DNA of 57,672 bases from a virus: the IMG/VR virus record IMGVR_UViG_3300046535_001319, positions 1 through 57,672 of that record. One strand, written 5' to 3'. Positions 7,940-34,533 of this stretch are shown in pieces. The notes below the pieces were generated by a model, which searched no databases, was not told the DNA's origin, and saw only the letters and a list, made by a program, of their open reading frames with translations. The number at the start of each line of letters is the position of its first letter. The stretch's first letter is position 1. Position numbers and translations under genes: made by a program.

Positions 7940-8238
7940 CGCGCCGAGTCACCGACTGGCAGCCCGAGGCGGCCTGCGCCGAGATAGGGCCGGGCGCCTT
8001 CCTCCTCGATGACGAAGCGGACACGGCCACCGCAATCGCCATGTACAACCAGGTCCGCCCCGTGTGCGACCGGTGCCCGGTGAAGACCGACTGCCTGGAG
8101 TTCGCCCTCGCCGTTGAAGGCGGCGCCGGCTCGTCCTTCAGGTCCGGCATGTACGGCGGCCGCACCCCGAAGGAGCGCTACCGCATCCACAAGCGACGCG
8201 AGCAGGCCGCCCTCGACGCCATCGCCGCCGCGGCCTGA
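7936..8238 (+). CDS. WhiB-like iron-sulfur transcription factor
   Basis: 100 residues with the four WhiB cysteines: C14 (EAACAEIGPG), C44 and C47 (VCDRCPVKTDC) and C53. The glycine-turn motif is present as GMYGGRTPKERYR, replacing the usual Gly-Val/Ile-Trp-Gly-Gly. Wbl proteins carry a 4Fe-4S cluster and work with the host sigma factor; phage versions can reprogram host transcription or block superinfection. It is coupled to the previous gene. Confidence 0.88.
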   Translation: MTRRVTDWQPEAACAEIGPGAFLLDDEADTATAIAMYNQVRPVCDRCPVKTDCLEFALAVEGGAGSSFRSGMYGGRTPKERYRIHKRREQAALDAIAAAA

Positions 8239-20136: not shown

Positions 20137-20160
20137 GGCCCCCGGTATCAACCGGGGGCC
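20137..20160 (+). terminator. Terminator closing the accessory operon
   Basis: GGCCCCCGGT (20137-20146) pairs perfectly with ACCGGGGGCC (20151-20160) across ATCA, 20 bp after the preceding stop codon. Some 140 bp of intergenic sequence without other features follow. Confidence 0.75.
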
Positions 20161-20301: not shown

Positions 20302-20577
20302 TCAGCCTGCGGTCTTGCCGCCACGCTTGGGGGCCTTGATCGAGCGCACAGTCGGGTTGCGCTTGAGCGGCACGCCGTGTTCACGGGCGATGCCCCGCAG
20401 CGTCTCGTCCGACCACGGCAGGTGGCCAGCAAGCACCTTGGCGGTGACGTCGAACTGCTTCATCTCCTCAGCGGCCGCGGTGCGGAGCGCATCGCGGGCG
20501 GCATCTGCTGCCGTCTGTGCCTCCTCGTAGCGCGCGATGGCTGCGCGAAGTTCCTGGCTGGGGCTGTAGTCGGTCAT
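20302..20577 (-). CDS. Probable DNA-binding regulator of the transfer module
   Basis: 91 residues from ATG 20577. An N-terminal helical/coiled part (QELRAAIARYEEAQTAADAA) is followed by an HTH-like segment (LPWSDETLRGIAREHGVPLK) and a lysine-rich tail. It is transcribed away from the transfer-like operon, and the shared upstream region has four copies of a CCAAGC-N-GCTTGG-type repeat. It is therefore probably a Kor-type repressor of its own and the transfer promoters; this is inferred from layout. Confidence 0.6.
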   Translation of the reverse strand: MTDYSPSQELRAAIARYEEAQTAADAARDALRTAAAEEMKQFDVTAKVLAGHLPWSDETLRGIAREHGVPLKRNPTVRSIKAPKRGGKTAG

Positions 20578-20592
20578 GCCCCAGATAGTTGC

Positions 20593-20735
20593 ACAAGCGA
20601 TTTGGCCATGGCCACGGTCTGTGCTGCTCATGTTCCCAGTACATCACGCCAAATAGTTCTGGCCAAGTCGCTGGGACTACTTGATTGGCCAAGCGTCTTG
20701 GTCTAACGTGGAACTCGTCAGGCCAAGCAGCTTGG
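20593..20735. promoter_or_regulatory. Repeated palindromic operators and rightward promoter of the transfer-like module
   Basis: Related 13-mers occur at 20593-20605 (ACAAGCGATTTGG), 20663-20675 (CCAAGTCGCTGGG), 20689-20701 (CCAAGCGTCTTGG) and 20723-20735 (CCAAGCAGCTTGG, a perfect palindrome about its centre). A rightward promoter TTGATT (20681-20686) / TAACGT (20704-20709), spacer 17, has one site in the spacer and one over the start region. Confidence 0.65.
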
Positions 20736-20751
20736 ACAAGGGGAGAGAACC

Positions 20752-21090
20752 ATGAACGCCAGTGCCCGTAAGGCCCAGCAGCTGATCCGCCAGCGGACCC
20801 GCACCCAGCGCGCCGCCGCCCGCATCAACCGCCGCGGCACCGGCACCCTCGCCACCCACGCCATCGCCCAGGGCCTCACCCACCACGACGCCCGCAGCGT
20901 CGCCGGCAGCCTCCGCACCGCCGCCAAGAAGGCCGGCATCACCGGCACCGAGGTCCGCGTCCACGCCGGACGGCACATGCGAGACGCCCGCCACTACACC
21001 CCGGCCGAGGTCGCCGCTATGGCCACCATCTACAAGCCGCGCAAGCCGGCTTACCGCGCCGTCGCCGCCCGCCTCGCCCTGGCCGCGTGA
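20752..21090 (+). CDS. Small basic protein, first gene of transfer-like operon
   Basis: 112 residues, ATG after GGGGAGAG. Strongly basic and helical (ARKAQQLIRQRTRTQRAAAR, then DARSVAGSLRTAAKKAGITG, VHAGRHMRDARHYTPAEV). Similar small proteins are found near the transfer genes of Streptomyces plasmids. Its operator-controlled position makes it the leader of the module. Exact function unknown. Confidence 0.7.
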   Translation: MNASARKAQQLIRQRTRTQRAAARINRRGTGTLATHAIAQGLTHHDARSVAGSLRTAAKKAGITGTEVRVHAGRHMRDARHYTPAEVAAMATIYKPRKPAYRAVAARLALAA

Positions 21091-21224
21091 TCGCCATGGC
21101 CGCCTGCGACTTCTGCGGCTGGAAGGGCGACGCCTCCGAGCTGACCCCCGGCCCGTCCGGTGACCCGACCTGCGGCGACTGCCACCTCGACCACGCCGAC
21201 ACCCGCGCCGCCTACGCCCACTGA
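21087..21224 (+). CDS. Small zinc-ribbon protein
   Basis: 45 residues from GTG overlapping the previous stop (an internal ATG at 21096 is also possible). CDFCGWKG and CGDCH form a C-x2-C pair of pairs, typical of a zinc ribbon. Function unknown. Confidence 0.6.
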   Translation: MIAMAACDFCGWKGDASELTPGPSGDPTCGDCHLDHADTRAAYAH

Positions 21225-21316
21225 GGGCCCACTTGCCCGGCCTGGTGGCCGTGACCCGCTCCGGTCGCCGGGCCGTACCGCCCCACCCCTGCACCACCAA
21301 CCGGAAGGACACCGCC

Positions 21317-21499
21317 ATGCCCAAGCTCTTCCTGCCCCGCCTCGGCACCTACGTCCTGGTCTGCCCGCCCGCCGACTCCGACGAGACCGCGACCCCCCTC
21401 CGCGTCTACGGGCCGATCCGCGCCTACGACATCCGGGCGTTCGTCGCCCAGGCCGCCGGCCGCACCGCCGACCAGTACTCCCTCCGCTACGACGCCTGA
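21317..21499 (+). CDS. Small hypothetical protein of the transfer-like module
   Basis: 60 residues, ATG behind GGAAGGAC; longer upstream starts lack a ribosome site. LPRLGTYVLVCPPADSDE then RAYDIRAFVAQAAGRTADQY. Small proteins of this sort are typical of Streptomyces plasmid transfer regions. Function unknown. Confidence 0.6.
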   Translation: MPKLFLPRLGTYVLVCPPADSDETATPLRVYGPIRAYDIRAFVAQAAGRTADQYSLRYDA

Positions 21500-21514
21500 A
21501 CCGGAGACCAGCCC

Positions 21515-21766
21515 ATGCGCATCGTCCGCACCGCCGTCACCCTCGCCGAGATCGCCCTCGATGCGGTCCTGTACCTGGTCGTCGACCGGTTCTTCTGGAG
21601 CGTGAACAAGGCCGTCGCCCTGCTCGCCGCGGTCGGCTTCGTCACCCTGCTCGGCCAGCCGATCGTCTACCCGGCCGCCACCACCATCGCCGGAGGGGTG
21701 CTGCTCGCCCTCGACACCATCGCCTGGTTCCTCGACCGCGAGTACCAGCGCCGCGCCACCAGCTGA
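21515..21766 (+). CDS. Small membrane protein, Spd-like
   Basis: 83 residues, ATG after CGGAGACC. Two hydrophobic helices (IALDAVLYLVVDRFFW and AVALLAAVGFVTLLG), then a third segment (TTIAGGVLLALDTIAWFL) and a basic end. Spread (Spd) proteins of Streptomyces plasmids are small membrane proteins in this kind of context; assignment is by analogy. Confidence 0.6.
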   Translation: MRIVRTAVTLAEIALDAVLYLVVDRFFWSVNKAVALLAAVGFVTLLGQPIVYPAATTIAGGVLLALDTIAWFLDREYQRRATS

Positions 21767-21796
21767 CCATCCACCAACCCCACGAGGGAGAAAGCC

Positions 21797-21883
21797 ATGT
21801 CCGACCACAGCTTCAACGGCGGCTACGGCCACCAGCCGATCCCCACCCCTCCGCCCCCGCCGCCCGCGGAGCCGCAGAAGTGA
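21797..21883 (+). CDS. Proline-rich micropeptide
   Basis: 28 residues, ATG after GAGGGAGAAAG, ending in a run of eight prolines interrupted by Thr (PIPTPPPPPPAEPQK). Good ribosome site, tight spacing. Function unknown. Confidence 0.4.
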   Translation: MSDHSFNGGYGHQPIPTPPPPPPAEPQK

Positions 21884-21945
21884 ACGGCTACGACGACGGC
21901 CCCGTCATCCCGAAGATCCCGAACCCCCGCCCCCCGTCCGACTGA
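21880..21945 (+). CDS. Micropeptide, coupled
   Basis: 21 residues from GTG in GTGA overlap with the previous small gene (ends PKIPNPRPPSD). Only positional support. Confidence 0.3.
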   Translation: MNGYDDGPVIPKIPNPRPPSD

Positions 21946-22049
21946 CAGCAGCCGACCATCAGCGCGCCCCCGGCCCGGCCGGCGCCCGCTCACGACGGAG
22001 ACGCGCACCACCCCGGGCACCCCGCCCGGGCAACCCAGAGGAGCACCTC

Positions 22050-22232
22050 ATGGCCCTGTTCGGCCGCACCACCAGCAGTGACAGCAGCAACGGCGACGAG
22101 TACGGCAAGTGGGTCGCCGCGGACGCGGTCGACATGACCGAGTTCGACCAGGCCCGCCAGGCACCGGCCACGACCCGCACCCCCGCCAAGGCCGCCGACA
22201 TCCTCGACGCCCTGCTCGGCAACAACAACTGA
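22050..22232 (+). CDS. Small hypothetical protein
   Basis: 60 residues, ATG after AGAGGAGC. Acidic, disordered-looking N-terminus (GRTTSSDSSNGDEYGKW) and a C-terminal helix (PAKAADILDALLGNNN). Function unknown. Confidence 0.6.
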   Translation: MALFGRTTSSDSSNGDEYGKWVAADAVDMTEFDQARQAPATTRTPAKAADILDALLGNNN

Positions 22233-22282
22233 CCCACCGGCGCGCACCACCCGGCGCCGGACCAACCGAGAGGAACCCCAAC

Positions 22283-22465
22283 ATGAGCGCCCCCACCACC
22301 GTCCCCGGCCCGACGACCCGCGCCGACTGGTACGAGGCCGCCCGGCAGCACTACGCCCAGGCCGCGATCGCAGTCCTGGCCGAGGACAGCTACTCCGACG
22401 AGGTCGCCACGATCGTCGCCCTCGGCCAGCTCGCACTGGCCCTTGGCCACGCCGCAGACGCCTGA
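22283..22465 (+). CDS. Small helical hypothetical protein
   Basis: 60 residues, ATG after GAGAGGAAC. Contains DWYEAARQHYAQAAIAVLAE and EVATIVALGQLALALGHAAD. Small helical proteins like this are frequent beside Streptomyces FtsK-like genes. Function unknown. Confidence 0.6.
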   Translation: MSAPTTVPGPTTRADWYEAARQHYAQAAIAVLAEDSYSDEVATIVALGQLALALGHAADA

Positions 22466-22556
22466 TCGCCGTACGGCGCCGCGCAGCCCACCCGGTCTGT
22501 GCGGCAGCCGCAGGCACTCAGACACCCCGCCGCACGCCCCACGACTGGAGACCGCC

Positions 22557-22778
22557 ATGCCCCCGCGCCTGCCCGACACCCGCCAGATCCTCGCCGGCAT
22601 CTGGATCCGCCTCATGGTCCTCGCCCCGATCCTGATGGCGCCGATCACCTGCCTGTGGCTGTTCGGTGTCCTGCCGTCCAGCAGCAGCCGCACCGTCGGC
22701 GCCCTGCTCGTGCTCCTCGTCCTCGCCCTCGACACCGTCCGCAACCCGAGCGGCATCAGGCAGGGGGCACGGACGTGA
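22557..22778 (+). CDS. Small membrane protein, Spd-like
   Basis: 73 residues, ATG after GGAGACC. Two hydrophobic helices (IWIRLMVLAPILMAPITCLW and VGALLVLLVLALDTV). Overlaps the next frame by GTGA. Likely one of the membrane components of the transfer-like module. Confidence 0.6.
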   Translation: MPPRLPDTRQILAGIWIRLMVLAPILMAPITCLWLFGVLPSSSSRTVGALLVLLVLALDTVRNPSGIRQGART

Positions 22779-22927
22779 GCGCCGCAACCGAGGCAGCCAT
22801 CGCCGCCGCTGCAGCCGAGCAGGCCCGCCAGGCCGCACACGCCGCAGCCGAAGCCCAGCGCATCGCCGCCGAGAACCTCGCCCGCCTCACCGCAATGACC
22901 ACCGCCCACCTCGGGCGACCCCAGTGA
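22775..22927 (+). CDS. Alanine-rich helical small protein
   Basis: 50 residues from GTG overlapping the previous stop. Single long amphipathic helix of Ala/Gln/Glu (EAAIAAAAAEQARQAAHAAA). Function unknown. Confidence 0.5.
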   Translation: MSAATEAAIAAAAAEQARQAAHAAAEAQRIAAENLARLTAMTTAHLGRPQ

Positions 22928-22979
22928 CAAGCAGCCAGTTACCCATCCACAGCACCACCCACCAGGAAGGACAGGACCA

Positions 22980-24233
22980 GTGAGCAGCTGGTACGAGGAG
23001 CGCCGCCAGGACAAGCGCCTCGACGCCGAACTCCGGCAGCAGCGCGATCAGGCAGACGAGGACCGGCGCCGCAAGGACCGCGCCGACCAGGCAGAGCAGG
23101 CCCGCAAGGACAAGCGGGAGGCCGAGCAGCGCCGCAAGCGCGAGCAGGCCGAACGCCAGCAGCGCCGCGCCGAGCGGGTCACCAACGCCAAGACGTGGCT
23201 GGCCGCCGAGTCCGACACCGCGTTCTCCGTCCTGATGATCCTCCTGGCCGTGTTCCCGTCGATCGCCTCGCAGGTCGGTGCGCTCGGCGGCAAGGTCGAC
23301 TTCGGATCCGCGGTGTCCCTGGCGCTGATGCTGGAGCTCGGCGCCTGGTCCGCCACGGTCGGCGGCGCCCGGGCACTGCGTGATGGCCGGCCCACCGTCC
23401 CGTACCGGGTGGCCATGTGGGGCTGCGCGCTGATTGCGGCGGTCATCAACGTCACGCACAACCTGGAGCGCGGCTGGTGGGTTGCCGCCGTTCTCGGCCT
23501 CGCCTCGATCGCAGGCGTCGCGTTCTGGGATCTGCGCTGCGCTGGCCGGCATGGCACCTCGCGCCGGACGAAGGCGGAGCGGGCCGCGGAGAAGGCCCGC
23601 AAGGCGCACGCGAAGGAGCGGGCGACCGCGCACCAGGACGTCCAGCGGACCGCGGAGCGAATCGTCTCCGCCGCGACGTTCGGCGCCGTCGAGTTCGAGG
23701 GCGCCTTCACCGACGCGTGGGAGGTCCACCACGGCACCCGCGAGGTTGGCCTGACCCCGGCGATGGTTGCGCTGCGTGTGCAGTCGAAGCGGCGGATGGC
23801 CGAGGCGTTCGGCACCGAGGCGGACGACGAAGCGCTGTTCCCCGACACCGTTCCCGCGGAGTGGGCGAAGGCATTCCGCGGTACGGGCGGCACCGTGTCC
23901 CGCTCGCCGATCGGCACCGCGGACGGGGACGACGACGAGGGCGGCGAGGGTGTCCCGCGCATCGCCCCGAGGCGGCCCTCCGCGGGGCCGTCGCAGGCCG
24001 CGGAAGCCCTAGGGGGGAAAGGGAAGCGTCAGGTTCTCGGGGGGCGCCGTGAGCGCGTCCAGCGGCCCCTCGCGGCGGAGCACATCGAGAAGGTTCGGGC
24101 GTACGCGGACCTGATCGCCGAGTCCCACCAGACCATCTCCGTCCGCAAGGTCAAGGACCTCATCGGCGGTGGCGAGAAGGACTACCTGTCCCGCCTCACC
24201 CGCCACGTGAAGCAGCTCCGCGGCGAAGCCTGA
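22980..24233 (+). CDS. spdB: SpdB/DUF2637-like integral membrane protein
   Basis: 417 residues from GTG after GGAAGGACAGGACCA. Residues 1-70 are a highly charged coiled-coil-like helix (DEDRRRKDRADQAEQARKDK). Four hydrophobic helices follow at about 82-103, 110-133, 142-162 and 164-184, containing LMLELGAWSATVGGARALRD. The C-terminal half is soluble and basic. The four-helix core and place before an FtsK-like gene match the SpdB/DUF2637 proteins that work with TraB in intramycelial plasmid spreading. A phage-only role cannot be excluded. Confidence 0.7.
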   Translation: MSSWYEERRQDKRLDAELRQQRDQADEDRRRKDRADQAEQARKDKREAEQRRKREQAERQQRRAERVTNAKTWLAAESDTAFSVLMILLAVFPSIASQVGALGGKVDFGSAVSLALMLELGAWSATVGGARALRDGRPTVPYRVAMWGCALIAAVINVTHNLERGWWVAAVLGLASIAGVAFWDLRCAGRHGTSRRTKAERAAEKARKAHAKERATAHQDVQRTAERIVSAATFGAVEFEGAFTDAWEVHHGTREVGLTPAMVALRVQSKRRMAEAFGTEADDEALFPDTVPAEWAKAFRGTGGTVSRSPIGTADGDDDEGGEGVPRIAPRRPSAGPSQAAEALGGKGKRQVLGGRRERVQRPLAAEHIEKVRAYADLIAESHQTISVRKVKDLIGGGEKDYLSRLTRHVKQLRGEA

Positions 24234-24286
24234 CCCACCACCCCGCAGCTACAGCCCGTCAACCCCCACCCCGAGGAGCACCCCCG

Positions 24287-26488
24287 ATGTCCGAGTACAC
24301 GACTGGCCCCACCCCCGGCCCCGCCGACGACGAGCCCGGCACCTACGACCTCGCCCGCCACTTCTCCCCGGAGGTCCTCGCCGACCTGGAGACCGCCATG
24401 CAGCAGGAGGCCGAGCTGAGCACCGCCGGCCGCCGCGGCGCCATGGTTGGCACCATCGTCGAGCCCGTCGGCGACGAACTCGCCCGTCACTGGCTCGCCA
24501 CCGCCGGCCACAAGGCACTCCCCGAGTGGGCGCACTCCCGCGACGCCATCGCTGGCGCCCTCCGCCACCGCCGCGACCTCGCCGCCTACAAGACCCTGTT
24601 CCACAGCCTCCGCACCCCGGTCTACGCCGCCCGCGTCGTCGGCCTCGCCGGCTACGGCGCCTGGCGGGCCACCGCCGACGTCACCCACTGGGCGCTCGCG
24701 GGCGAATACAGCCGCGCCATCGCCCAGGCCCGCAAGTCCGGCGACGGCGCCCGCGTCCTGACCCTGCGCGACGAGCGCGAAGCCGTGTCCAAGGCCCGCC
24801 TCAAGTCGAAGCGCCTCGCCGCCGGCAGCGCCACCGCAGGCCTGTACGTCACCGCCACCCTCGTCACCGCGGCCATCGGCGCCTGGATCATCGCCGGCCC
24901 GATGCTCGTCACCCTCGGCGCCCTCCTTGCCGCGGCCGGCTACCGGGCCAAGGCCCACCGCGCCGACGGCGACACCGGCGACGTGTACCGCTTCCTCGAC
25001 GCTCTGCCGTCCGACCACGGCCCCGTCACCGACGAGCGGATCATCGCCGCCCTCCGCGACGTCGGCCTCCTCAAGCCGGACGAGTCCCTGCGCCCGCACG
25101 GCCTCGTCGACAAGGACAAGAACGGGGCAACCACCCACGTCTTCGACCTGCCGACCCGGGTCATCGCCTCCGACGTCATCCCGAAGAAGGCGAAGATCGC
25201 CGGCGCGCTCGGCCTCTCCGCCGAACAGCTCGACATCGAGCAGGCCGGCCCCGAAGGCCGCGTCTCCATGTGGGTGTCGAAGAAGGTGCCGTTCTCCGGC
25301 GCCGCCCCCACCTCCCCGCTGGTCGACGCCAAGACATGGTCGATCTGGGACGGCGTACCGTTCGGAACCACCCGGCGCGGCGCCCGCAAGCACCTCGAAC
25401 TCCTCTGGTCGTCCATGCTGTTCGGCGGCGCCCAGGGCTACGGCAAGACCACCGCCATGCGGATCCCCGCCGCCGCCGCCGTCCTCGACCCGCACGCCCA
25501 GGTCCTCCTCGCCGACTTCAAGGGCGGCGCCGACTGGGAGGCGCTGGAGGAGGTCGCCCACACGGCGATCATCGGCGCCGACCCGGCCGCCGTGACCGCG
25601 ATCGTCGCCCTGATCGACCGGCTCATCGACGAGATGGACCGCCGCTTCGCCCTCATCCGGTCCCTGCCGAAGCGCCTCCGCCCGGAGATGCGCCTCACCC
25701 CGCAGCTCGCCAAGGACCACCAGATGCCGGTTCTCGCCCTGATCATCGACGAGATCCAGGAAGCGTTCGGCGCGCTCCTCGCCGGCGCTGAGGGCCGCAA
25801 GGAGTTCGACGCCCTCGTGGAGAAGCTGGCCCGGCTGATCCGCCGCGGCCGGGCCTGCGGCCTGATCGTCATCGCCGCTGCCCAGCGCCCCGACGCCAAG
25901 TCCGTGCCGACCGCGTTCCGCGACGTCATCCTCAAGCGCTACTCGGTGCACACCGTGGACGACACGTCGTCGGACATGATCCTCGGCGACAAGATGGCCA
26001 CCCGCGGGTTCACCGCGGCTGGCCTCGGCATCATCGGCGTCGGCGTCCTCGCCGAGGAGTCCGGCGCCGAGCGGATCCAGGTCGACCGGATCACCGAGGA
26101 CCAGCTGGAGGAGATCTGCCTCCGCGGCCGACAGCTGCGCATCGAGGCGGGCACCCTGACCGGGTACGCGGCCCGCGGAACCGTCCAGGCGGGCAGCGTC
26201 CTGTCGCTGATGCTCCAGGCGTTCGACACGGCCGGCGTCACCGAGCTGGGCACCGGCGACCTGGTCGCCCTGCTCGCCAAGCTCGACCCGGCTGGCGACT
26301 GGGCCCGGCGTGACGGGGAGGCGGACAGGGCGTTCTCGTCCCGGACCGGCGCCGCCCTCGGCAAGGCGGTCAAGGCCGCGCTGGACGGCACCGGCCGGGC
26401 CCTGTCGGCACGTCAGGTGGCGACCCTCGGCGGGAAGCCGGGCAACGGCTACACCCTGGCCGACGTGCAGGCCGCAATCGGCGCATAG
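24287..26488 (+). CDS. traB: FtsK/SpoIIIE-type DNA translocase, TraB-like
   Basis: 733 residues, ATG after CGAGGAG. Two hydrophobic segments at about 185-222 anchor it in the membrane. The RecA-like motor has Walker A GGAQGYGKTT (about 379-388) and Walker B LALIIDEIQE (about 482-491), with LLADFKGGADWE and FRDVILKRYSVHTVDD typical of FtsK/SpoIIIE. The C-terminal 60 residues (GRALSARQVATLGGKPGNGY) form a winged-helix-like domain, as in TraB proteins that bind clt. Its neighbours are an SpdB-like gene upstream and a hexamer-repeat cluster directly downstream. TraB pumps double-stranded DNA between mycelial cells; that function here is inferred. Confidence 0.85.
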   Translation: MSEYTTGPTPGPADDEPGTYDLARHFSPEVLADLETAMQQEAELSTAGRRGAMVGTIVEPVGDELARHWLATAGHKALPEWAHSRDAIAGALRHRRDLAAYKTLFHSLRTPVYAARVVGLAGYGAWRATADVTHWALAGEYSRAIAQARKSGDGARVLTLRDEREAVSKARLKSKRLAAGSATAGLYVTATLVTAAIGAWIIAGPMLVTLGALLAAAGYRAKAHRADGDTGDVYRFLDALPSDHGPVTDERIIAALRDVGLLKPDESLRPHGLVDKDKNGATTHVFDLPTRVIASDVIPKKAKIAGALGLSAEQLDIEQAGPEGRVSMWVSKKVPFSGAAPTSPLVDAKTWSIWDGVPFGTTRRGARKHLELLWSSMLFGGAQGYGKTTAMRIPAAAAVLDPHAQVLLADFKGGADWEALEEVAHTAIIGADPAAVTAIVALIDRLIDEMDRRFALIRSLPKRLRPEMRLTPQLAKDHQMPVLALIIDEIQEAFGALLAGAEGRKEFDALVEKLARLIRRGRACGLIVIAAAQRPDAKSVPTAFRDVILKRYSVHTVDDTSSDMILGDKMATRGFTAAGLGIIGVGVLAEESGAERIQVDRITEDQLEEICLRGRQLRIEAGTLTGYAARGTVQAGSVLSLMLQAFDTAGVTELGTGDLVALLAKLDPAGDWARRDGEADRAFSSRTGAALGKAVKAALDGTGRALSARQVATLGGKPGNGYTLADVQAAIGA

Positions 26489-26521
26489 CGGACGGATCGA
26501 CCTTCCGGGCCACGTTCCGGG

Positions 26522-26682
26522 AGGTTCATCCCCGCAGGTCAGCAGGTTCAGCCCAGGTTCCGCAGGCCGCCCGGAGGTTCCCCACGACGGAACCTCCGGG
26601 CCCCGCCAAGAACCTGCCCGGAACCTCGCCTGACCAGGACAAACACGGACAAAGCTCAGCGTTCAGAACCTCCCCCGAACCT
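26522..26682. repeat. clt: Nine AGGTTC/GAACCT hexamers: candidate clt (TraB recognition site)
   Basis: AGGTTC occurs at 26522, 26544, 26555 and 26575, and its reverse complement GAACCT at 26590, 26610, 26621, 26666 and 26677. Two central copies form a perfect 12-bp inverted repeat (CCCGGAGGTTCC 26570-26581, complement 26589-26600). Nine copies in 161 bp is far above chance. In plasmid pSVH1 the clt transfer locus is a cluster of short repeats at the 3' end of traB bound by TraB; the location here is the same, though the repeat sequence differs. Confidence 0.65.
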
Positions 26683-26705
26683 TCGACCCACCCGAGGAGC
26701 CCGCC

Positions 26706-27203
26706 ATGGACACCGCCCGCCAGACCCCTGCCCCGCTGCCCGGCGTCGCCCAGATCACCTACCCGGACGGCACCAGCGAGTACCGATACACGGATGAGCT
26801 GCAGGCCGCCATCGAGCGGGCCGAGGCTGCTGGCTACGCGCCCGTCGTCCAGCCCGCAGCCCAGCCGATCACCATTCAGCTCGTCACCCCCCAGACCAGC
26901 CCGGCCGTTCCGGTCGAGCGGCGCCAGCTGATCGAGCCGTGGATGGTCCGCTTCGGCGCCGGCCTCGGCGGGGCCGCCGGTGTCATCGCCCTCGCCGGCC
27001 CGGCGGAGGCCGCGGTCGTCGAGCTGTCCGTCAGCGTCGGGCACATGCTGCACATGGCGATGGAGCTCGGCGGCGCCGGCCTCGTCGCCTACGTCCTGAT
27101 CCGCCTCCTCGCCGGCCGGAAGCCCAGCAGTGGCGGCCGGGTGCTGGAGGTTACGCAGATCATCGAGCAGACCATCACTCAGGTCACCCGGATCGGTGAG
27201 TGA
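26706..27203 (+). CDS. Spd-like membrane protein
   Basis: 165 residues, ATG after CGAGGAG. A soluble Pro/Gln-rich N-terminus carrying YPDGTSEYRYTDELQAAIER is followed by hydrophobic helices (LGGAAGVIALAGPAEAAVV, then GGAGLVAYVLIRLLA) and a short tail (VLEVTQIIEQTITQVTRIG). It follows traB and the repeat cluster, a typical place for spread-function genes. Confidence 0.6.
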   Translation: MDTARQTPAPLPGVAQITYPDGTSEYRYTDELQAAIERAEAAGYAPVVQPAAQPITIQLVTPQTSPAVPVERRQLIEPWMVRFGAGLGGAAGVIALAGPAEAAVVELSVSVGHMLHMAMELGGAGLVAYVLIRLLAGRKPSSGGRVLEVTQIIEQTITQVTRIGE

Positions 27204-27835
27204 TGCGCTGGCTCGGCGGTTCCACGCATGCGGTGCGGATCCTCGGCCCGCTGATGGTCAACGGCCAGCCCCTCGCCTGCCCGGAGAAGGGCTGCGGTGA
27301 CACTGGGAAGGGCGGCGGGCACACCCTCACCGCGGAGGGCGAGAACGGGCACGCCACGATCACCTGCGGCGCCAACCCGCAGCACCAGTGGCGGGTGCCG
27401 GACATCACGATCACCCTGGTCAAGTTGCTGCCCCGGTCGGGCCGGTTCGAGCACAGGGAGGGCGACCTGAAGCTGGTCGGCATCGCGGCCCGGCCCGGCA
27501 AGGGCGACAAGAAGCCCCCGCCGGCCGGCAAGGGGCGGGCCCTCGGCCAGCAGCCCGCACCGGCCAAGACGCCCAGCCGCGGCAGCAGCAACGGTCCCGG
27601 GCTGGCTGGGGTCGTCGTCGCCGGGCTGCAGACCGTCACCGCCACCGTCGGCACCGTCGGGCAGATCGCCGGCGCCGCCGGGCAAGGGGCCCGCGCCCTC
27701 GGCGACGTGGCCAAAGCGGGCAGCAATGCCATCAGCCTGGCTCGCGACGGGGTCAAGGCAGCCGACCGGGCCGCCGGACGCCGCCACCAGACAGCGCTCG
27801 GCGAACGCCAGACCGGACCGAAGCGGGCCCTGTGA
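27203..27835 (+). CDS. Spd-like protein with cysteine motif and basic tail
   Basis: 210 residues; ATG 27203 (or GTG 27200) overlaps the previous stop. The N-terminal half contains CPEKGCGDTGKGGGHT and TITCGANPQHQW, a possible metal site. After a Lys/Pro-rich linker comes a glycine-rich hydrophobic helix (GLAGVVVAGLQTVTATVGTV) and a basic end. The architecture resembles plasmid Spd proteins; function inferred. Confidence 0.6.
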   Translation: MRWLGGSTHAVRILGPLMVNGQPLACPEKGCGDTGKGGGHTLTAEGENGHATITCGANPQHQWRVPDITITLVKLLPRSGRFEHREGDLKLVGIAARPGKGDKKPPPAGKGRALGQQPAPAKTPSRGSSNGPGLAGVVVAGLQTVTATVGTVGQIAGAAGQGARALGDVAKAGSNAISLARDGVKAADRAAGRRHQTALGERQTGPKRAL

Positions 27836-27876
27836 ACCGCGGGACAGACAGCCAGACAGAAAGGGACAATGACCCC

Positions 27877-28152
27877 ATGAGCGAACAGCCCCTCCACCCT
27901 GGACACGTGCTCCTGCGCACCGCCGTCGAGATCAACGGACGCAAGGTCCAGGCCGCCATGTCCGTCGAGAGCCGCGTGTGGAACGCCGGTACCGAGTACC
28001 AGGGGCACATGAAGGCCCAGGTGCTCCACATGCTGGGGGAGGCCATCGTCAAGGAACTCGCGCCCGAGGTCACTGTCGAACCGCCCCCGCTCACCTTGCG
28101 CGAGTCTCTGCACGCGGCCCTGCGGCCGTTCGACTACCCGCAGGAGCACTGA
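27877..28152 (+). CDS. Hypothetical protein
   Basis: 91 residues, ATG after AAAGGGAC. Begins with GHVLLRTAVEINGRKVQAAM then EYQGHMKAQVLHMLGEAIV, similar to small proteins seen in many Streptomyces phages. It overlaps the next start (TGATG). Confidence 0.6.
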   Translation: MSEQPLHPGHVLLRTAVEINGRKVQAAMSVESRVWNAGTEYQGHMKAQVLHMLGEAIVKELAPEVTVEPPPLTLRESLHAALRPFDYPQEH

Positions 28153-28454
28153 TGGCCGACGACAAGCCGGACGCCGGGTGGACGATCATGGATCGCACCC
28201 TTGAACTGCTCGCCGTGCACTGCGCCACCGTGGCCTACCAGGAAGCCAGCGGCTGGGAATGCGCCGGCTGCGGCGAGTACATCGACTCCCGGAACATCAC
28301 CGGCTGGCTGGCCCGCGCTGAGCAGATGCGCACCGGTCGGCGACTTGCCAGTGAGCCGCTCCAAGTGACGTTGGACAATCGGTCGGCCACGTTCACTCCG
28401 AGCACACCGATGACGCCGTACTTCGCAGGCGAGGAAGGCATGCCAAATGACTGA
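28152..28454 (+). CDS. Hypothetical protein with CxxC motif
   Basis: 100 residues, coupled to the previous gene and preceded by AGGAG. WECAGCGEYIDS is a short zinc-finger half. Function unknown. Confidence 0.55.
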   Translation: MADDKPDAGWTIMDRTLELLAVHCATVAYQEASGWECAGCGEYIDSRNITGWLARAEQMRTGRRLASEPLQVTLDNRSATFTPSTPMTPYFAGEEGMPND

Positions 28455-28791
28455 TGACCTGGTGAAGTTCCTGAGGGACCGCCTCGACGAGACCGCCCGG
28501 AAAGCTGAGGCCGCGAAGCCCGGCCCCTGGCATGCCGACGGCGGAAGCGTGTACGCCAGCCATCCCACGGACGAGGTGGTCGGCTACACCGAGAGCGCCG
28601 AGCACATCGCGGAGCACGACCCGGCGCGGGTGCTGGCCGAGGTCGACGCCAAACGGCGCATCATCGCCGAGTGCGTGAACGCCTACGACCAAGACAGTCG
28701 CGGCATGGCGTGGATGGCCGATCAGGTGCTCGGCATGCTGGCCCTGCCGGACCGCGATCACCCCGACTATCGGCAGGAGTGGACGCCGTGA
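28447..28791 (+). CDS. DUF6221-like protein
   Basis: 114 residues. Starts DLVKFLRDRLDETARKAEAA, has HIAEHDPARVLAEVDAKRRI and ends LGMLALPDRDHPDYRQEWTP; this order is what I know of DUF6221, a widespread Streptomyces chromosomal and phage family of unknown function. Coupled at both ends. Confidence 0.75.
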   Translation: MTDDLVKFLRDRLDETARKAEAAKPGPWHADGGSVYASHPTDEVVGYTESAEHIAEHDPARVLAEVDAKRRIIAECVNAYDQDSRGMAWMADQVLGMLALPDRDHPDYRQEWTP

Positions 28792-29072
28792 GACTGCCGT
28801 GGAGTCGGAAGCCGGTCCCTTGGTCGCGCCCGGGAACACCCGACCGCCTTGCCATCGCCGTCATGGAGTACGAGGAACTCGGCATCCAGCCCGAACCCGG
28901 CAGCGCCGCAGCCCTCGCCATCGGACTCCGCGCCTTCGGCCGCACCGGCATGTGCGCCGTGCACGACCCCGTCGCCGTCACCAGCCTCGGCGACCCCGTG
29001 CCGAACGCGATCTGCACCAGGTGCGGCCAGCACATGATTCAAGGCGAACACGGCGGCTGGAGGATCGCGTGA
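28788..29072 (+). CDS. Hypothetical protein, paralogous to gene at 53864
   Basis: 94 residues from GTG in overlap. VMEYEELGIQPEPGSAAALA aligns with the gene at 53864 (VLEYEVYGTVPEPGTAAAAY), so these are related copies in two modules. The C-terminus has CTRCGQHMIQGEHGGW, a possible zinc half-site. Function unknown. Confidence 0.6.
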   Translation: MRLPWSRKPVPWSRPGTPDRLAIAVMEYEELGIQPEPGSAAALAIGLRAFGRTGMCAVHDPVAVTSLGDPVPNAICTRCGQHMIQGEHGGWRIA

Positions 29073-29431
29073 CCACCATCGCCAAGGCCATCCAGACCTG
29101 TTCCGCCTGCCCCTCCCAGTGGGATGCCTGGACCGACACCGGCCAGTACCTGTACCTCCGCTACCGAGGGGGCCACGGCACCGTCGAGGTCTACCCCAGC
29201 CCCGACGTGAACGAATGGGTCATCACGGACGAGGCGCTGATCGCCGAGTTCGACACCGGCGAGGAGTACGGCGGCGAGATCGAGCTCGCCGAGTTCTGCC
29301 ACCGCGCCGGCCTCACCATCGCCCCCGACGCCGAGCTCAGCACGGGGCGCGGCGATCTGTGGCAGCTCACCATCACCGGAGCTAGAGTCCAGACGAAGCC
29401 TCCTTGCACAGGACAGGGCAGCGCTTCGTAA
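29069..29431 (+). CDS. Hypothetical protein, last gene of the transfer-like operon
   Basis: 120 residues from GTG in overlap. CSACPSQWDAWTDTGQYLYL then RGGHGTVEVYPSPDVNEW and YGGEIELAEFCHRAGLTIAP: a small mixed alpha/beta domain. A strong terminator follows 44 bp later. Confidence 0.6.
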   Translation: MTTIAKAIQTCSACPSQWDAWTDTGQYLYLRYRGGHGTVEVYPSPDVNEWVITDEALIAEFDTGEEYGGEIELAEFCHRAGLTIAPDAELSTGRGDLWQLTITGARVQTKPPCTGQGSAS

Positions 29432-29474
29432 AGGTTCCCCGGTAGGCCGTAGGACGCATCACCGCGAGAACCCG

Positions 29475-29505
29475 GGGCCCGCAGCTGATCAGTAGCTGCG
29501 GGCCC
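29475..29505 (+). terminator. Terminator ending the transfer-like operon
   Basis: GGGCCCGCAGCT (29475-29486) pairs perfectly with AGCTGCGGGCCC (29494-29505), seven-base loop, followed by TCCGCTTTGTCC. It separates early from late genes. Confidence 0.75.
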
Positions 29506-29612
29506 TCCGCTTTGTCCCGCCCGCCTGCCATCGTGCACGTGGGGTCGCGGCGGCCCCGCCCGGTCTCCCCCACCGCAGGGCCGCCGCATCTCGTGGCGGG
29601 TGGGCCGCGCAC

Positions 29613-29643: not shown

Positions 29644-29687
29644 GACCCATGCACTCCCTAACCTGCCAAGCAGACGAAGGGGAGACC

Positions 29688-30227
29688 ATGAACGACCCGA
29701 ACGACCAGCCCGACCAGCCACGCGGCGGCAACGGCAAATGGACCCGCGGCCTCGCCACCGCCCAACGCGACGCCGAAGCCGCCCGCCTCCGCTCCGAAGG
29801 CAACTCCTACCGCGCCATCGCCCAAGCCCTCGGCGTCGACGTCCACACCGCCCACGACGCCGTCCGCCGCGCCATGCAAGCCGTCGTCGCACCCGCCGGC
29901 GAAATCGCCATCGCCCACGAACTCGGCCTCCTCGACGAAGAACTCCTCCGCCTCGACGACCTGTACGCCAAAGTCGTGCAGGTCCTGGAGCGGGAGCACG
30001 TCACCGTGTCCCAAGGCCGCGTCGTCTACGGCGAAGACGGGGCCGCCGTCCCCGACGACGACTGGATCCTCAAAGCCGTCGACCGCCTCGTCCGCATCGA
30101 CGACGCCCGCCGCCGCAACTCGGAATCCCGCCGCCGCCTCCTCGGCCTCGACCAGCCCGTCAAAACCCAGATCAGCGGCGGCCTCACGTACGAAGTCATT
30201 GGCATTGATCCGGAGGCGCTCAAGTAG
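29688..30227 (+). CDS. terS: Terminase small subunit
   Basis: 179 residues, ATG after AAGGGGAGACC. An N-terminal HTH (AARLRSEGNSYRAIAQALGV then DVHTAHDAVRRAM, about 30-63) recognises packaging DNA; the rest is an oligomerisation-type helical region ending in RRRLLGLDQPVKTQIS. Position at the head of the late operon and upstream of terL supports the call. Confidence 0.75.
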   Translation: MNDPNDQPDQPRGGNGKWTRGLATAQRDAEAARLRSEGNSYRAIAQALGVDVHTAHDAVRRAMQAVVAPAGEIAIAHELGLLDEELLRLDDLYAKVVQVLEREHVTVSQGRVVYGEDGAAVPDDDWILKAVDRLVRIDDARRRNSESRRRLLGLDQPVKTQISGGLTYEVIGIDPEALK

Positions 30228-30277
30228 CCTGCACATCCCAACTGGCCTGCGGAAACGGTAGAATTGACACACCAAAA

Positions 30278-30306
30278 CCCCGGCGACGGAGGCAACCGTC
30301 CCGGGG
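30278..30306 (+). promoter_or_regulatory. Leader hairpin upstream of the HNH gene
   Basis: CCCCGG-CGACGG pairs imperfectly with CCGTC-CCGGGG (30278-30306). A TTGACA lies at 30264-30269 but without a good -10. The element could attenuate terminase-HNH expression or be part of a mobile HNH insertion. Confidence 0.3.
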
Positions 30307-30337
30307 CGTGGAGAACACCTAGCGAAGAGGTGCCCTC

Positions 30338-30985
30338 ATGTCCAACACTACCTGCGGAGTCGACGGCTGCGAACGCCGACGTTCCTACCGCCTGTACTGC
30401 CATGGCCACTACCGCCGTTGGAAGCGGAACGGCGACACCGGGCCAGCCAACCTGCGTTCCACCCACAGCGAGCCTCCAACCTGCACATTCGACGGCTGCG
30501 GACGGCGACAGCGAACACTGGGGCTCTGCGCCGCTCACTACCTCCAGTCGTTCCATGGGAAGACCCTGACCCCGATCCGCGTCCGACCGGACACGATGGC
30601 ACGCGACGATCAGGGGAGGAAGCAGTGCACGGTCTGTACCGAATGGCTCCCCACCGATCGCTTCTACGGCAATGCCAAGACTCGGGACCGGCTAGCCACG
30701 AAGTGCATTGACTGCCATCGCGGCGATGCACTTCACCGTGGGTACGGAATCTCAGGACACGACTACCGCGAGATGCTCGTCAGGCAGCAGGGCATCTGCG
30801 CCATCTGCGGCGGAGTGAACCGCGACGGGCGAAAGCTCTTCGTTGATCATGACCATGAATCTGGCGAGGTTCGTGGCCTGCTCTGCAATCTCTGCAACCG
30901 CGGGATCGGCAACTTCCGTGACAGCGTCGAGCTCCTTGAAGCGGCCATCAGGTACTTGAAGGAGCATGGAGCACGGAGCCGCTAG
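30338..30985 (+). CDS. HNH endonuclease of the endonuclease VII type
   Basis: 215 residues. C-terminal nuclease core: C154-x2-C157 (CAICGG), DHDH at 170-173, then C183-x2-C186 (CNLCNRG), matching phage recombination endonuclease VII. The N-terminus has two similar zinc-knuckle units (C6/C11/C21/H24 and C49/C54/C64/H67) and a third CxxC pair near 97-126. Phage HNH proteins between terminase genes assist cos cleavage; alternatively it is a homing gene, since its codon third positions look less GC-rich than its neighbours. It overlaps terL by 20 bases. Confidence 0.85.
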   Translation: MSNTTCGVDGCERRRSYRLYCHGHYRRWKRNGDTGPANLRSTHSEPPTCTFDGCGRRQRTLGLCAAHYLQSFHGKTLTPIRVRPDTMARDDQGRKQCTVCTEWLPTDRFYGNAKTRDRLATKCIDCHRGDALHRGYGISGHDYREMLVRQQGICAICGGVNRDGRKLFVDHDHESGEVRGLLCNLCNRGIGNFRDSVELLEAAIRYLKEHGARSR

Positions 30986-32294
30986 CAACGTAGTTCGGTA
31001 TGAGCCGCGTGGCGCCGCTCTGGATCTTTTCCGGTCGCACGAGACCGAGCTGATCCTCAGCGGCGCCGCTGGAACGGGCAAGTCCGTCGGCGCTCTCATG
31101 AAGATCCACCTTGCATGCCTGTCTACTCCCAGGGTTCGCGCCCTCATCGTCCGCAAGACACACGCTTCCCTCACTGGCTCGACCCTTGTCACCTTCCGGA
31201 ACAAGGTCGCCGCCGAAGCCATCGCTGCCGGCGCCGTCTCCTTCTACGGCGGATCGGCCCAGGAACCGGCCTCGTTCCGGTACGCCAACGGCAGCGTCAT
31301 CGTCGTCAGTGGCCTCGACCGTGCCAGCCGGCTGCTCTCCATGGAGCTGGACCTGGTCTTCATCGACGAGGCGGTGGAGGTCACAGAGGAGGACGTCGAC
31401 ACCCTCGTCACCCGTCTCCGAAACGGGGTACTCAGCTATCAGCAGCTGATCATGGCCACCAATCCCGGACCCCCTACCCACCACCTCAAGCTCCGCGCCG
31501 ATGCCGGCCGCAGCCGCATGCTCTACAGCAAGCACGAGGACAACCCCCGCATGTACAACGGCGGCGAGTGGACCAGCTACGGCAAGGACTACTTGGCCCG
31601 CCTCGACACCCTCGTGGGTGCCCGCTACGAGCGGATGCGCTGGGGCCGCTGGGTTGCGAGCGAGGGCGCCGTCTACGAGGACTGGGACCCGGCGGTTCAC
31701 ATCGTCGACCCGTCCGTGGTCAGGCCCGACTGGACTCGTTGGTGGTCAATCGATTTCGGTTACACCGCGCCCTTTGTCCTGCAGTGCTGGGCCGAGGACG
31801 GCGACGGGCGCCTGTACCTGTACCGCGAGATCTACCGGACGAAGCGCCTCGTCGAGGATCACGCTCGGGACATCCTCGCCATGGTGGCGCCGGGCGGCCG
31901 CTGGATCGAGCCGCGGCCCCGGGCGATCATCTGCGACCACGACGCAGAGGACCGGGCCACCCTCGAACGGCACCTTGGCCTCGGCACCAGCTCGGCGCAC
32001 AAGACGGTGCGCGACGGCATCCAGGCAGTGCAGGCCCGCCTCCGCCCGGCCGGTGATGGCAAGCCGAGATTGTTCGTCTGCCGGGATGCACTGGTCGAGC
32101 GGGACAGCGAGCTAGTCGACGCCAAGAAGCCGTGCGGAACAGCGGAGGAGGTCGTCGGGTACGTCTGGGACGCTCAGCCCGGCAAGCAGCCGAAGGAGGT
32201 TCCGGTGAAGGAGAACGATCACAGCATGGACGCGCTCCGCTACATCGTTGCCGACCGGGACCTCGGCGGCCGACCCCGAGTGAGGTGGGTGTGA
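30966..32294 (+). CDS. terL: Terminase large subunit
   Basis: 442 residues. ATPase: Walker A SGAAGTGKS (32-40), Walker B LVFIDEA (about 130-136), and a coupling motif LIMATNPGPP. Nuclease: SIDFGYTAPF (first acid), IICDHDAEDR and ENDHSMDALRY near the C-terminus. It packages the genome into proheads through the portal. The start lies inside the HNH gene. Confidence 0.92.
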   Translation: MEHGAASNVVRYEPRGAALDLFRSHETELILSGAAGTGKSVGALMKIHLACLSTPRVRALIVRKTHASLTGSTLVTFRNKVAAEAIAAGAVSFYGGSAQEPASFRYANGSVIVVSGLDRASRLLSMELDLVFIDEAVEVTEEDVDTLVTRLRNGVLSYQQLIMATNPGPPTHHLKLRADAGRSRMLYSKHEDNPRMYNGGEWTSYGKDYLARLDTLVGARYERMRWGRWVASEGAVYEDWDPAVHIVDPSVVRPDWTRWWSIDFGYTAPFVLQCWAEDGDGRLYLYREIYRTKRLVEDHARDILAMVAPGGRWIEPRPRAIICDHDAEDRATLERHLGLGTSSAHKTVRDGIQAVQARLRPAGDGKPRLFVCRDALVERDSELVDAKKPCGTAEEVVGYVWDAQPGKQPKEVPVKENDHSMDALRYIVADRDLGGRPRVRWV

Positions 32295-32482
32295 CCAGCA
32301 TCGTGACCGGCGTCCTCGCCCGCGCGCGCGAGGCCCGTACCGCGCTTCTGACCGTCGCAGGCCTTGGCAGCCTCACTGCGTCAGCGTGGGTGGCGTTCGG
32401 CGTCGCGCCCGGTCTGGCGGCCACTGGCGTTGCCGCCCTGGTTCTGGAAGCTCTGACGACGGACGGGGTGAAGCGCCGATGA
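32291..32482 (+). CDS. Small membrane-like protein between terL and portal
   Basis: 63 residues from GTG in GTGA overlap with terL, ending in ATGA with the portal. Hydrophobic helices TVAGLGSLTASAWVAFGVA and LAATGVAALVLEAL. Function unknown. Confidence 0.65.
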   Translation: MTSIVTGVLARAREARTALLTVAGLGSLTASAWVAFGVAPGLAATGVAALVLEALTTDGVKRR

Positions 32483-34518
32483 GGTCTCCGCTCCGCACTC
32501 TCTTCGACCGCGCGCCCGTCCCGTTCGTGTCCAGCCGTGGCGGCGGCTTCGCCGCGCCCTGGGGCCGACCGTCCGGGATGGCCGCCCAGATGGCCGCCAT
32601 GGGGTCGGTTGGGACGCTGTTCGCGATCGTGTCGCGGCTCGCCAACGGCACCGCCCAGACCGAGTGGAAGCTGTACCGCAAGGCATCAACCCCGGATGGC
32701 GAGCGCACCCCGGTCACCGCGCACGCCGCCCTTGACCTGTGGCAGCACCCGAACCGGTTCTACACGACGCAGGAACTCGTCGAGACGTTCGAGCAGCACA
32801 TCGAGCTGACCGGCGAGGGCTGGCTGGTGATCGGCCGTGATCCGCGGTCGGCGATCCCCCTGGAGCTGTGGCCAGTCCGGCCGGACCGCATGACCCCGGT
32901 GCCGTCCCCGACTGAGTACCTGACCGGCTACATCTACACCGGCCCCGACGGTGAGCAGGTCCCCCTCCGGGTGGACGAGGTCATCCAGCTCCGCATGCCG
33001 AACCCGATGGATCCGTACCGCGGCATGGGCCCGGTCCAATCGATCCTCGTTGACCTCGACGCGACCAGGTACTCGGCGGAGTGGAACCGCAACTTCTTCA
33101 TCAACTCGGCCCAGCCTGGCGGCATCCTCCAGGTCGACCGGCGTCTCGGAGACGCCGAGTTCGACGAGCTGCGGATGCGCTGGAACGAGCAGCACCGCGG
33201 GACCGCGGCCGCCCACAGGGTCGCCATCCTGGAGCAGGCAACCTGGGTCGACCGCAAGTACACGCAGCAGGACATGCAGTTCACCGAGCTCCGGGCCGTC
33301 TCCCGTGAGGTCATCCGCGAGGCGTTCGGCTTCCCCAAGCCGCTCCTCGGCTCCGTGGACGACGTCAACCGGGCCAACGCCGAGGCCGGCGAAGTTGTCT
33401 TCGCCCGCTGGCTGCTGATCCCGCGCCTGGAGCGCATCAAGCAGGCGCTGAACAACGACCTGCTGCCGCTGTTTGGGGCCGCGGCGAAGGGCCTGGAGTT
33501 CGACTACGAGTCCCCGGTGCCGGAGGACGAGGAGGCGGAGAACGCCGAGCTCACCGCCAAGAGCAACGCGGCGGCCGTGCTGGTCACTGCCGGCTATGAC
33601 CCGGCGGAGGTTCTGGCTGCCGTTGGCCTGCCGCCCATGGCGCACACCTACCCCGTCGCTCCTGTCGCCCCGGCCGTGCCGGCGCCGACGAATGGTCGGC
33701 CGCGCGCACACCACACCCAGCGGCTGCGTCTCCGGGACTCCGCCGACGGCGACCTGGAGGACGTCCGAGCGGACCACGAGCAGGCCCTGGCCTCCCTTTC
33801 TACGACGTGGGACGGCATTGAGGCTGGGTGGATTCGGGACATTGAGGCCCTGGTCGAGGACGCCGTGGACAGTGGTGACACGACTGCTCTTGCGTCGCTC
33901 ACCGTCCCGACGGATGCCGCGGCCGGCGCCCTGCAGCGGGCGCTCAGCACGATGGCCGCGCAGGCAGCTTCCCGCCTCGTCCAAGAGGCCGCCGCGCAGG
34001 GCGTCCACATCACCGCGCCCATCGTTGACCCTGCCATCACCAACCGGACCGGGCCGGCCGCCTGGCGTGCCGTGTTCGGCGGGGAGCTCGGCGACGTCGC
34101 CACGGCGACCACGGCGATCCTCTCCGCGTGGATGGCCGGTCAGGCCGGCCGCGAGGCCTTGCGCCTGTACCGGCCTGGCGCCACCGGTCGGGCTGTAGCG
34201 GATGGTGTCGGCCGGTTCCTCCGCGGCCTGAAGGGCGTGTTCCGGCGCGACACCCTCGGCGGCGCCCTGCACCGCGCCCAGAACGTCGGACGGCTCGCAG
34301 CCATCGACGCAGGCCCGCCTGACCCGGTCATCACCGCGACCGAAGTACACGACGCGAACTGCTGCGGGCCCTGCGTCGACATCGACGGAACCGAGTTCAC
34401 CAGCCTCGACGCCGCAGCCGACGCGTACGGCACGGGCGGTTACATCAACTGCGACGGCGGGATCCGCTGCCGCGGCACGGTGGTCGCCGAATGGCCTCCG
34501 GGAGCCGCCAGCAGCTGA
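32479..34518 (+). CDS. Portal protein fused to a MuF-like C-terminal domain
   Basis: 679 residues, well above the 400-500 usual for HK97-type portals. Residues 1-400 have portal features (VSRLANGTAQTEWKLYRKAS, LELWPVRPDRMTPVPSP, FGFPKPLLGSVDDVNRANAE). After a Pro/Ala linker near 400-420 the C-terminal part is helical and ends in a MuF-like cysteine motif, ATEVHDANCCGPCVDIDGTE with GGYINCDGGIRCRG. The portal nucleates the prohead, and MuF proteins sit near it and are often ejected. A fusion of both in one chain is seen in several actinophages. Confidence 0.85.
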   Translation: MRSPLRTLFDRAPVPFVSSRGGGFAAPWGRPSGMAAQMAAMGSVGTLFAIVSRLANGTAQTEWKLYRKASTPDGERTPVTAHAALDLWQHPNRFYTTQELVETFEQHIELTGEGWLVIGRDPRSAIPLELWPVRPDRMTPVPSPTEYLTGYIYTGPDGEQVPLRVDEVIQLRMPNPMDPYRGMGPVQSILVDLDATRYSAEWNRNFFINSAQPGGILQVDRRLGDAEFDELRMRWNEQHRGTAAAHRVAILEQATWVDRKYTQQDMQFTELRAVSREVIREAFGFPKPLLGSVDDVNRANAEAGEVVFARWLLIPRLERIKQALNNDLLPLFGAAAKGLEFDYESPVPEDEEAENAELTAKSNAAAVLVTAGYDPAEVLAAVGLPPMAHTYPVAPVAPAVPAPTNGRPRAHHTQRLRLRDSADGDLEDVRADHEQALASLSTTWDGIEAGWIRDIEALVEDAVDSGDTTALASLTVPTDAAAGALQRALSTMAAQAASRLVQEAAAQGVHITAPIVDPAITNRTGPAAWRAVFGGELGDVATATTAILSAWMAGQAGREALRLYRPGATGRAVADGVGRFLRGLKGVFRRDTLGGALHRAQNVGRLAAIDAGPPDPVITATEVHDANCCGPCVDIDGTEFTSLDAAADAYGTGGYINCDGGIRCRGTVVAEWPPGAASS

Positions 34519-34533
34519 GGCGAGGAGGGCTGG

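Follow-up and report, generated by a model that had tools for sequence, protein, structure and literature searches.

The window, that is the whole analysed stretch of 57,672 bases of the IMG/VR virus record IMGVR_UViG_3300046535_001319, contains at positions 20302-29505 a block of genes resembling the set by which Streptomyces conjugative plasmids transfer double-stranded DNA, namely the translocase TraB, the membrane protein SpdB2 and the cis-acting locus of transfer (clt). From left to right this block, which was the part under study, consists of a divergent gene with palindromes, a phrog_10890 gene, genes for small zinc and membrane proteins, an SpdB2 homologue, a translocase gene, an array of the word AGGTTC, two genes whose products have hydrophobic segments, and phage genes as far as the terminase (Table 1). 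A preliminary description, made from the sequence alone, had reported a transfer module of this kind inside a complete siphovirus genome. The small zinc and membrane proteins that it listed are present, and a terminal repeat of 177 bp with 99.4% identity closes the contig, giving a circle of ~57.5 kb.

The translocase scores 33.6 bits against FtsK_SpoIIIE (PF01580, cut-off 24), and two adjoining hydrophobic segments (hydropathy peaks at residues 184-202 and 197-215) form its predicted N-terminal membrane anchor. It is 53% identical to two Streptomyces linear-plasmid proteins and 32% identical to TraB of plasmid pSVH1 (E=3e-43). In the phylogenetic tree it groups with Streptomyces plasmid translocases (Shimodaira-Hasegawa-like approximate likelihood ratio test, SH-aLRT, 100), inside the translocases of plasmids and actinomycete integrative and conjugative elements (AICEs), and not solely with chromosomal FtsK or with a packaging family; the packaging-family reading was rejected on this tree. 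The motor and the membrane segments of the 733-residue protein are thus as first described, while its winged-helix end is only plausible. The model of the C-terminal domain (predicted local distance difference test, pLDDT, 63.7) has the order helix-helix-helix-hairpin-helix, which is compatible with a winged helix. An AlphaFold model of the full-length translocase was discarded (pLDDT 39.6).

The gene preceding the translocase encodes a protein that is 36% identical over 310 amino acids (aa) to SpdB2 of pSVH1 (blastp, E=1e-42) and 51% identical over its full length to a DUF2637 protein of a Kitasatospora plasmid. The Pfam DUF2637 score of 15.3 is under the cut-off of 22.8, but the match to pSVH1 bears out the SpdB/DUF2637-like assignment made earlier, and the translocase has a neighbour with plasmid homologues. 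SpdB2 is the best-preserved part of the kit between the window and the related phage G337 (82%), and is under purifying selection (ratio of nonsynonymous to synonymous substitution rates, dN/dS, 0.28 between the two).

Directly behind the translocase gene, nine of the 35 copies of AGGTTC in the whole genome lie within 161 bp, four forward and then five reverse, where 0.1 would be expected (shuffle z=11.4; P ~1.7e-15). This is the top short-word cluster of the phage. The remaining copies have no strand bias (12 plus, 14 minus), and a reading of the word as a segregation signal like the FtsK-orienting polar sequences (KOPS) was rejected on that ground. The hexamer-repeat locus of the preliminary description, proposed there as a cognate site, is therefore a real array, and it occupies the position of the proven clt of pSVH1. 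The gap behind traB of pSVH1 yields the known TraB recognition sequence (TRS) word GACCCGGA, four forward and one reverse, and the method therefore recovers a proven clt. Published clt sites of such plasmids vary and hold repeats bound by the Tra protein (PMC3583192).

Array words were compared among 35 phage, plasmid and chromosomal AICE-like TraB loci. Most of them have an array in the same place with a word that differs by lineage (GTGTCC, ACGCGAC, CCGTAC, TAGAGGGG, CGCTAGCG, GGTTTCG, CCGCGACC, GCTACCGGTAGC and others); in several chromosomal loci the word enrichment alone is not significant. Similarity of the word tracks similarity of the C-terminus when motor similarity is controlled (partial rho 0.33, permutation P 0.001). 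A core independent of lineage often accompanies the words. In the window its left arm is GCAGGTCAGC, and the core CTGACCAGGACAAACACGGACAAAG is partly matched by TGACCTGCGCAAACACGGAG / TCTGACCTGCGCAAACACGGAG in pSVH1 and CTGACCAGGACAAACAC in the Kitasatospora plasmid; TGACC(A/T)G is found in either orientation in 18 of the 35 gaps behind traB. On these comparisons the array belongs to the kit. Behind traB, the chromosomal AICE-like loci (L012-L039) likewise have word arrays that are specific to a lineage (TAGAGGGG, CGCTAGCG and others); for the AICE pSAM2, a clt is reported as undescribed (PMC9513070).

Table 1. Features of the transfer block, its core motifs and the integration and packaging regions of the window.
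Feature	Position	Strand	Basis or remark
GntR-family regulator	1-637, spanning circle closure	-	PF00392 41 bits
3' half of tRNA-Arg, anticodon TCT	~994-1043	+	adjoins integrase; probable attP core, inferred from sequence
Tyrosine integrase	1156-2139	+	PF00589 84.9 bits
Divergent small helix-turn-helix (HTH)-type regulator, candidate	20302-20577	-	weak PHROG HTH match
Two CCAAGC-NN-CTTGG-type palindromes, candidate operators: CCAAGCGTCTTGG (20689), CCAAGCAGCTTGG (20723)	20689-20735		in divergent promoter region
phrog_10890 protein, left-edge marker of kit	20752-21090	+	phage backbone; retained in kit-less relative G313
Zinc-type mini-protein	21087-21224		sequence features
Small membrane protein, three hydrophobic segments	21515-21766	+	60% in G300
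Two-segment membrane mini-protein upstream of spdB2	22557-22778	+	65% in phage G337
SpdB2-type protein, 417 aa; charged coiled N-terminus, hydrophobic core, basic C-terminus	22980-24233	+	blastp
TraB-type FtsK/SpoIIIE DNA translocase, 733 aa; Walker A GAQGYGKT, residues 381-388	24287-26488	+	PF01580
Translocase C-terminal domain, candidate winged helix reading the array word; recognition helix ~SARQVATL	26147-26485	+	low-to-moderate model
clt-like array: AGGTTC at 26522, 26544, 26555, 26575 (+); 26590, 26610, 26621, 26666, 26677 (-)	26522-26682		directly behind translocase gene
Left arm of lineage-independent core	26534-26543		sequence comparison
Core partly common to pSVH1 and Kitasatospora plasmid	26630-26654		sequence comparison
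Small membrane protein directly 3' of array, Spd-like by position	26706-27203	+	60% in G337
One-hydrophobic-segment protein, Spd-like by position	27203-27835	+	72% in G337; dN/dS 0.35
Packaging/head block: small-terminase-like, TerL, portal, protease-like, major capsid protein (MCP)	29649-36824	+	right flank of kit

The capsid protein of the window has relatives in 80 contigs, and 38 of these were searched for a TraB-like gene. Five of the 38 were positive and the other 33, several of them fragments, gave no match to the kit. Patterns from the single protein brought up no relative among viral and genome contigs; an alignment that included the plasmid proteins did. A TraB/SpdB2 search of 50,697 phage records gave nothing comparable, with one weak match to a 3.4-kb Enterococcus record.

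The kit differs between phages that are otherwise closely related. Contig G300 has capsid, portal and TerL proteins 98% identical to those of the window. At the corresponding site it carries a TraB with 56% identity over 698 aa to the TraB of pSVH1, an array with the word CCCGGAC, close to that of pSVH1, and an SpdB-like membrane protein different from the window SpdB2. Over its N-terminal 40 residues this TraB still shares 97% identity with the window protein. In G337, SpdB2 and the start of TraB are kept but the motor and the array (CCGGACG) differ, and similarity resumes just before the next gene. Both kits are bounded on both sides by phage genes conserved with the window. The two flanking phage genes are ~1.3 kb apart in G313, compared with 8.6 kb, which makes this a kit-less locus. 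G001 is an unrelated phage whose terminase, portal and capsid are of a different type; between its DnaB and TerL genes lie GntR-UTRA, SpdB2, TraB and an array. The reading frames of the kit are intact in four phages. In the tree the phage TraBs do not form one group but fall into several branches of plasmid and chromosomal (AICE-like) proteins, and the kit has therefore been captured or exchanged repeatedly by phages. Word and motor change together, from AGGTTC in the window to CCCGGAC with the pSVH1-type TraB of G300 and CCGGACG with the third motor of G337, and in this comparison the motor, the DNA-reading end and the array behave as a single exchangeable unit.

Other contigs are less clear. 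G323 and G324 carry TraB-like genes that may lie inside or outside the prophage edges. G336 has an SpdB2 (67%) and a GntR gene, matches neither the window-type MCP nor the translocase, and may be a plasmid or AICE. G310 was excluded as a kit-bearing phage, having a Prim-Pol gene near TraB; on this 96.9-kb contig the TraB-like gene and the Prim-Pol gene, ~10 kb off, lie at 35.5-47.2 kb, possibly in an AICE beside a prophage. Only in G300, the sister phage, a 268-aa protein identified by eye as SGNH-type-esterase-like is encoded between kit and terminase (28034-28840 in reverse-complement coordinates).

Taken together, the block is probably a TraB/SpdB2/clt kit for transfer of double-stranded DNA that was taken from Streptomyces conjugative plasmids or AICEs and kept under selection. 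Its sequence features argue strongly for membership in this module. With the differing kits and matching sites of the sister phages, they suggest that mating-like transfer could be a route of spread for these viruses in addition to virions. In the plasmid model, TraB binds the array, makes a membrane channel and moves double-stranded DNA, and SpdB2 and the small proteins spread the DNA across septa (PMC4170104, PMC3583192). By analogy, we infer kit expression, a TraB hexamer, TraB binding to the array and virion-independent transfer by the window phage. The prophage would be excised as a circle by the integrase via attP at the tRNA-Arg, and GntR and the small divergent regulator would control the kit operon. 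The C-terminal domain of TraB would bind the AGGTTC array, and the hexamer would assemble in the membrane with SpdB2 and the small membrane proteins and pump the phage circle, double-stranded and unprocessed, into an adjoining mycelium and from there across septa. The phage could in this way colonise a mycelium without lysis and without a receptor. A wider proposal, given about an even chance, is that two unrelated Streptomyces siphovirus lineages are conjugative, moving between mycelia as naked double-stranded circles through the TraB pump, and exchange their specificity cassette, complete with motor, DNA-reading end and array, with plasmids and AICEs, all drawing on one common pool of orthogonal transfer specificities.

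Several points weigh against a transfer kit maintained for movement between mycelia. Kit-less phages of the same lineage exist and the kit is thus not essential, and no host genome of the window phage was identified. For the plausible winged-helix fold of the translocase end, the domain model had no significant Foldseek match in the PDB, and profile comparison with the pSVH1-type end gave a probability of only 42%. The partial correlation between word and C-terminus is modest, is inflated by related loci and owes much of its signal to close relatives. Finally, the role of the kit could be confined to spread inside a single mycelium. Intramycelial spreading and stability are functions of SpdB2 and further Spd proteins (PMC4170104), septa are equally an obstacle to phage infection in a mycelium, and it is SpdB2 that is best preserved between the window and G337. 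A kit that does no more than stabilise the phage or prophage DNA, or carry it from compartment to compartment of the same mycelium, is nevertheless rather unlikely; TraB and clt suffice for intermycelial transfer in plasmids (PMC3583192, PMC4170104) and are exactly the two parts that stay matched.

The translocase could instead be an FtsK-like aid of KOPS type to phage replication, segregation or packaging, with the array an ordinary loading site. Such roles are given in annotations of FtsK-like phage genes, as in the actinophage Geonosis, where the gene 'might be used during replication' (PMC11536984), and in the FtsK/SpoIIIE-like PHROG class. With plasmid transfer proteins as the nearest relatives of the translocase, SpdB2 at its side and phages of the same lineage that package without it, this role is improbable. 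Still less probable is that the kit is a remnant, left idle after the chance insertion of a conjugative element into the phage: the intact frames in four phages, the dN/dS of 0.28-0.35 for SpdB2 and the 27203 gene, the matching of word to motor and the same location in several phages all speak against it, although most relatives (33 of the 38 contigs, several being fragments) are without the kit. As an IMG/VR sequence, the record has no isolate behind it, and a metagenome assembly chimera of phage and plasmid was considered for that reason; it is hardly credible and was rejected, as the independent contigs G300 and G337 hold their kits between the same phage genes and G001, a separate record, also has a kit between phage genes.

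Among known systems, plasmids pSVH1, pFP11 and pZL1 resemble the window in their order of small genes, SpdB2, TraB, a ~220-bp gap and small genes. pSVH1 (and pFP11) further have homologous TraB and SpdB2 and a repeat array right behind traB, and pSVH1 shares the core TGACC(T/A)G-CAAACAC with the window. Unlike pSVH1, the window has the kit inside a siphovirus genome, its word is AGGTTC and not GACCCGGA, and its GntR gene stands beside int rather than beside the operon, which is headed by a different, small divergent regulator. The closest translocases, at 53%, are those of the linear plasmids of Streptomyces sp. NBC_01136 and S. albidoflavus NBC 01665 (NZ_CP108634, NZ_CP109237). These have an equal gap length and an inverted hexamer array, but the word is GTGTCC and no phage structural block is found at the site; the S. 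albidoflavus plasmid additionally annotates a type-IV-like conjugation set.

The plasmid-phage pZL12 (Streptomyces phage ZL12, NC_013420) likewise combines GntR and FtsK/SpoIIIE genes in a phage, and its conjugal transfer needs a tra gene plus two neighbours (PMC3583192). It differs from the window in being extrachromosomal, with ParAB. Its FtsK-like gp071 lies far outside the window TraB group (branch 2.9), and the sequence behind gp071 revealed no array comparable to that of the window. Judged by its head and tail genes, the isolated phage nearest to the window is Streptomyces phage Dagobah (MT711977; TerL 52%, portal 51%, MCP 50%); it differs in lacking the transfer kit, and nothing in it matches the window integrase.

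AICEs such as pSAM2 share with the window a tRNA-directed tyrosine integrase, a GntR regulator, TraB and Spd-type proteins, and the combination that serves as AICE criterion, integrase and TraB on one element, is found in the window. Unlike AICEs, the window has a full virion gene set. AICE replication genes are of the RepSA, RepAM (DUF3631) or Prim-Pol type (PMC3218068). DUF3631 was not found in the window, which is weak evidence of absence as the search matched no control genome; Prim-Pol matched below cut-off only and at a spurious place, and the library used in the replication-gene search includes no RepSA model. The replication-related genes of the window, RecT and an IstB/DnaC-like gene, are phage-type. 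Because no AICE-type replication gene was detected, the element does not appear to be a classical AICE, and the term phage-AICE hybrid used in the preliminary description goes too far as a classification.

Conjugation genes in a phage (pZL12) and FtsK-like genes annotated in some actinophages are already known. What is new is that integrating siphoviruses carry the whole plasmid kit together with its cognate site, that the kit has been exchanged repeatedly and that motor and word change in step. If the proposal holds, mating-type transfer would free a virus from dependence on receptor and lysis, for which pZL12 is to our knowledge the only earlier case of such movement, and the phage, plasmid and AICE gene pools of Streptomyces would be linked. 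A 2022 study notes that specificity has been demonstrated for pJV1, pSVH1 and pIJ101 only, and asks whether co-resident AICEs share TraB (PMC9513070). Most TraB genes compared here have their own word array at the 3' end, which makes that question directly testable, and the natural swaps between the window, G300 and G337 supply existing pairs from which to work out how the end of TraB recognises its word.

The block had been described as self-contained and lying between two terminators. In correction of this, the phrog_10890 gene is by comparison a phage-backbone gene and not a transfer gene, and the genes from 28152 onward probably are too, because they are retained when the kit changes or is absent. 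Strong hairpins fold at both ends (near 20137-20160 and 29474-29506; -26.9 and -29.9 kcal/mol, z ~ -4 by direct folding); they have no T-run, and the consensus terminator scan did not report them. The candidate for the divergent regulator with repeated operators is the small HTH-type gene with its palindromes; G300 has a different small divergent gene in this place. The proteins within 26706-27835 have one or two hydrophobic segments apiece, as expected from the Spd-like membrane proteins noted after the array, but the first of them has no sequence match to plasmid Spd proteins.

The window has the gene set of a temperate siphovirus (TerL, portal, HK97-type capsid protein, tape measure, GH25 lysin and tyrosine integrase), and its host is, from its relatives, most likely Streptomyces. 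The integrase at a tRNA-Arg and the GntR regulator of the preliminary description were both recovered. ARAGORN called no tRNA in the window because the 3' half alone is present; attP is probably at this half, beside the integrase. The GntR gene adjoins int, ~20 kb from traB. The two copies of the terminal repeat (1-177 and 57497-57672) differ by one indel inside the GntR gene, possibly a sequencing error in one copy. A second, diverged tyrosine recombinase is encoded at 54275-55402 (PF00589 42 bits). The early region contains a WhiB-family regulator (7936-8238, PF02467 45.8 bits), and tandem repeats of 21-54 bp (GGAGCAGGGGCTACCCC...) at 8626-8766 within gene 8320-9201 are a possible replication origin. 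A C5-cytosine DNA methyltransferase gene lies at 14164-15324.

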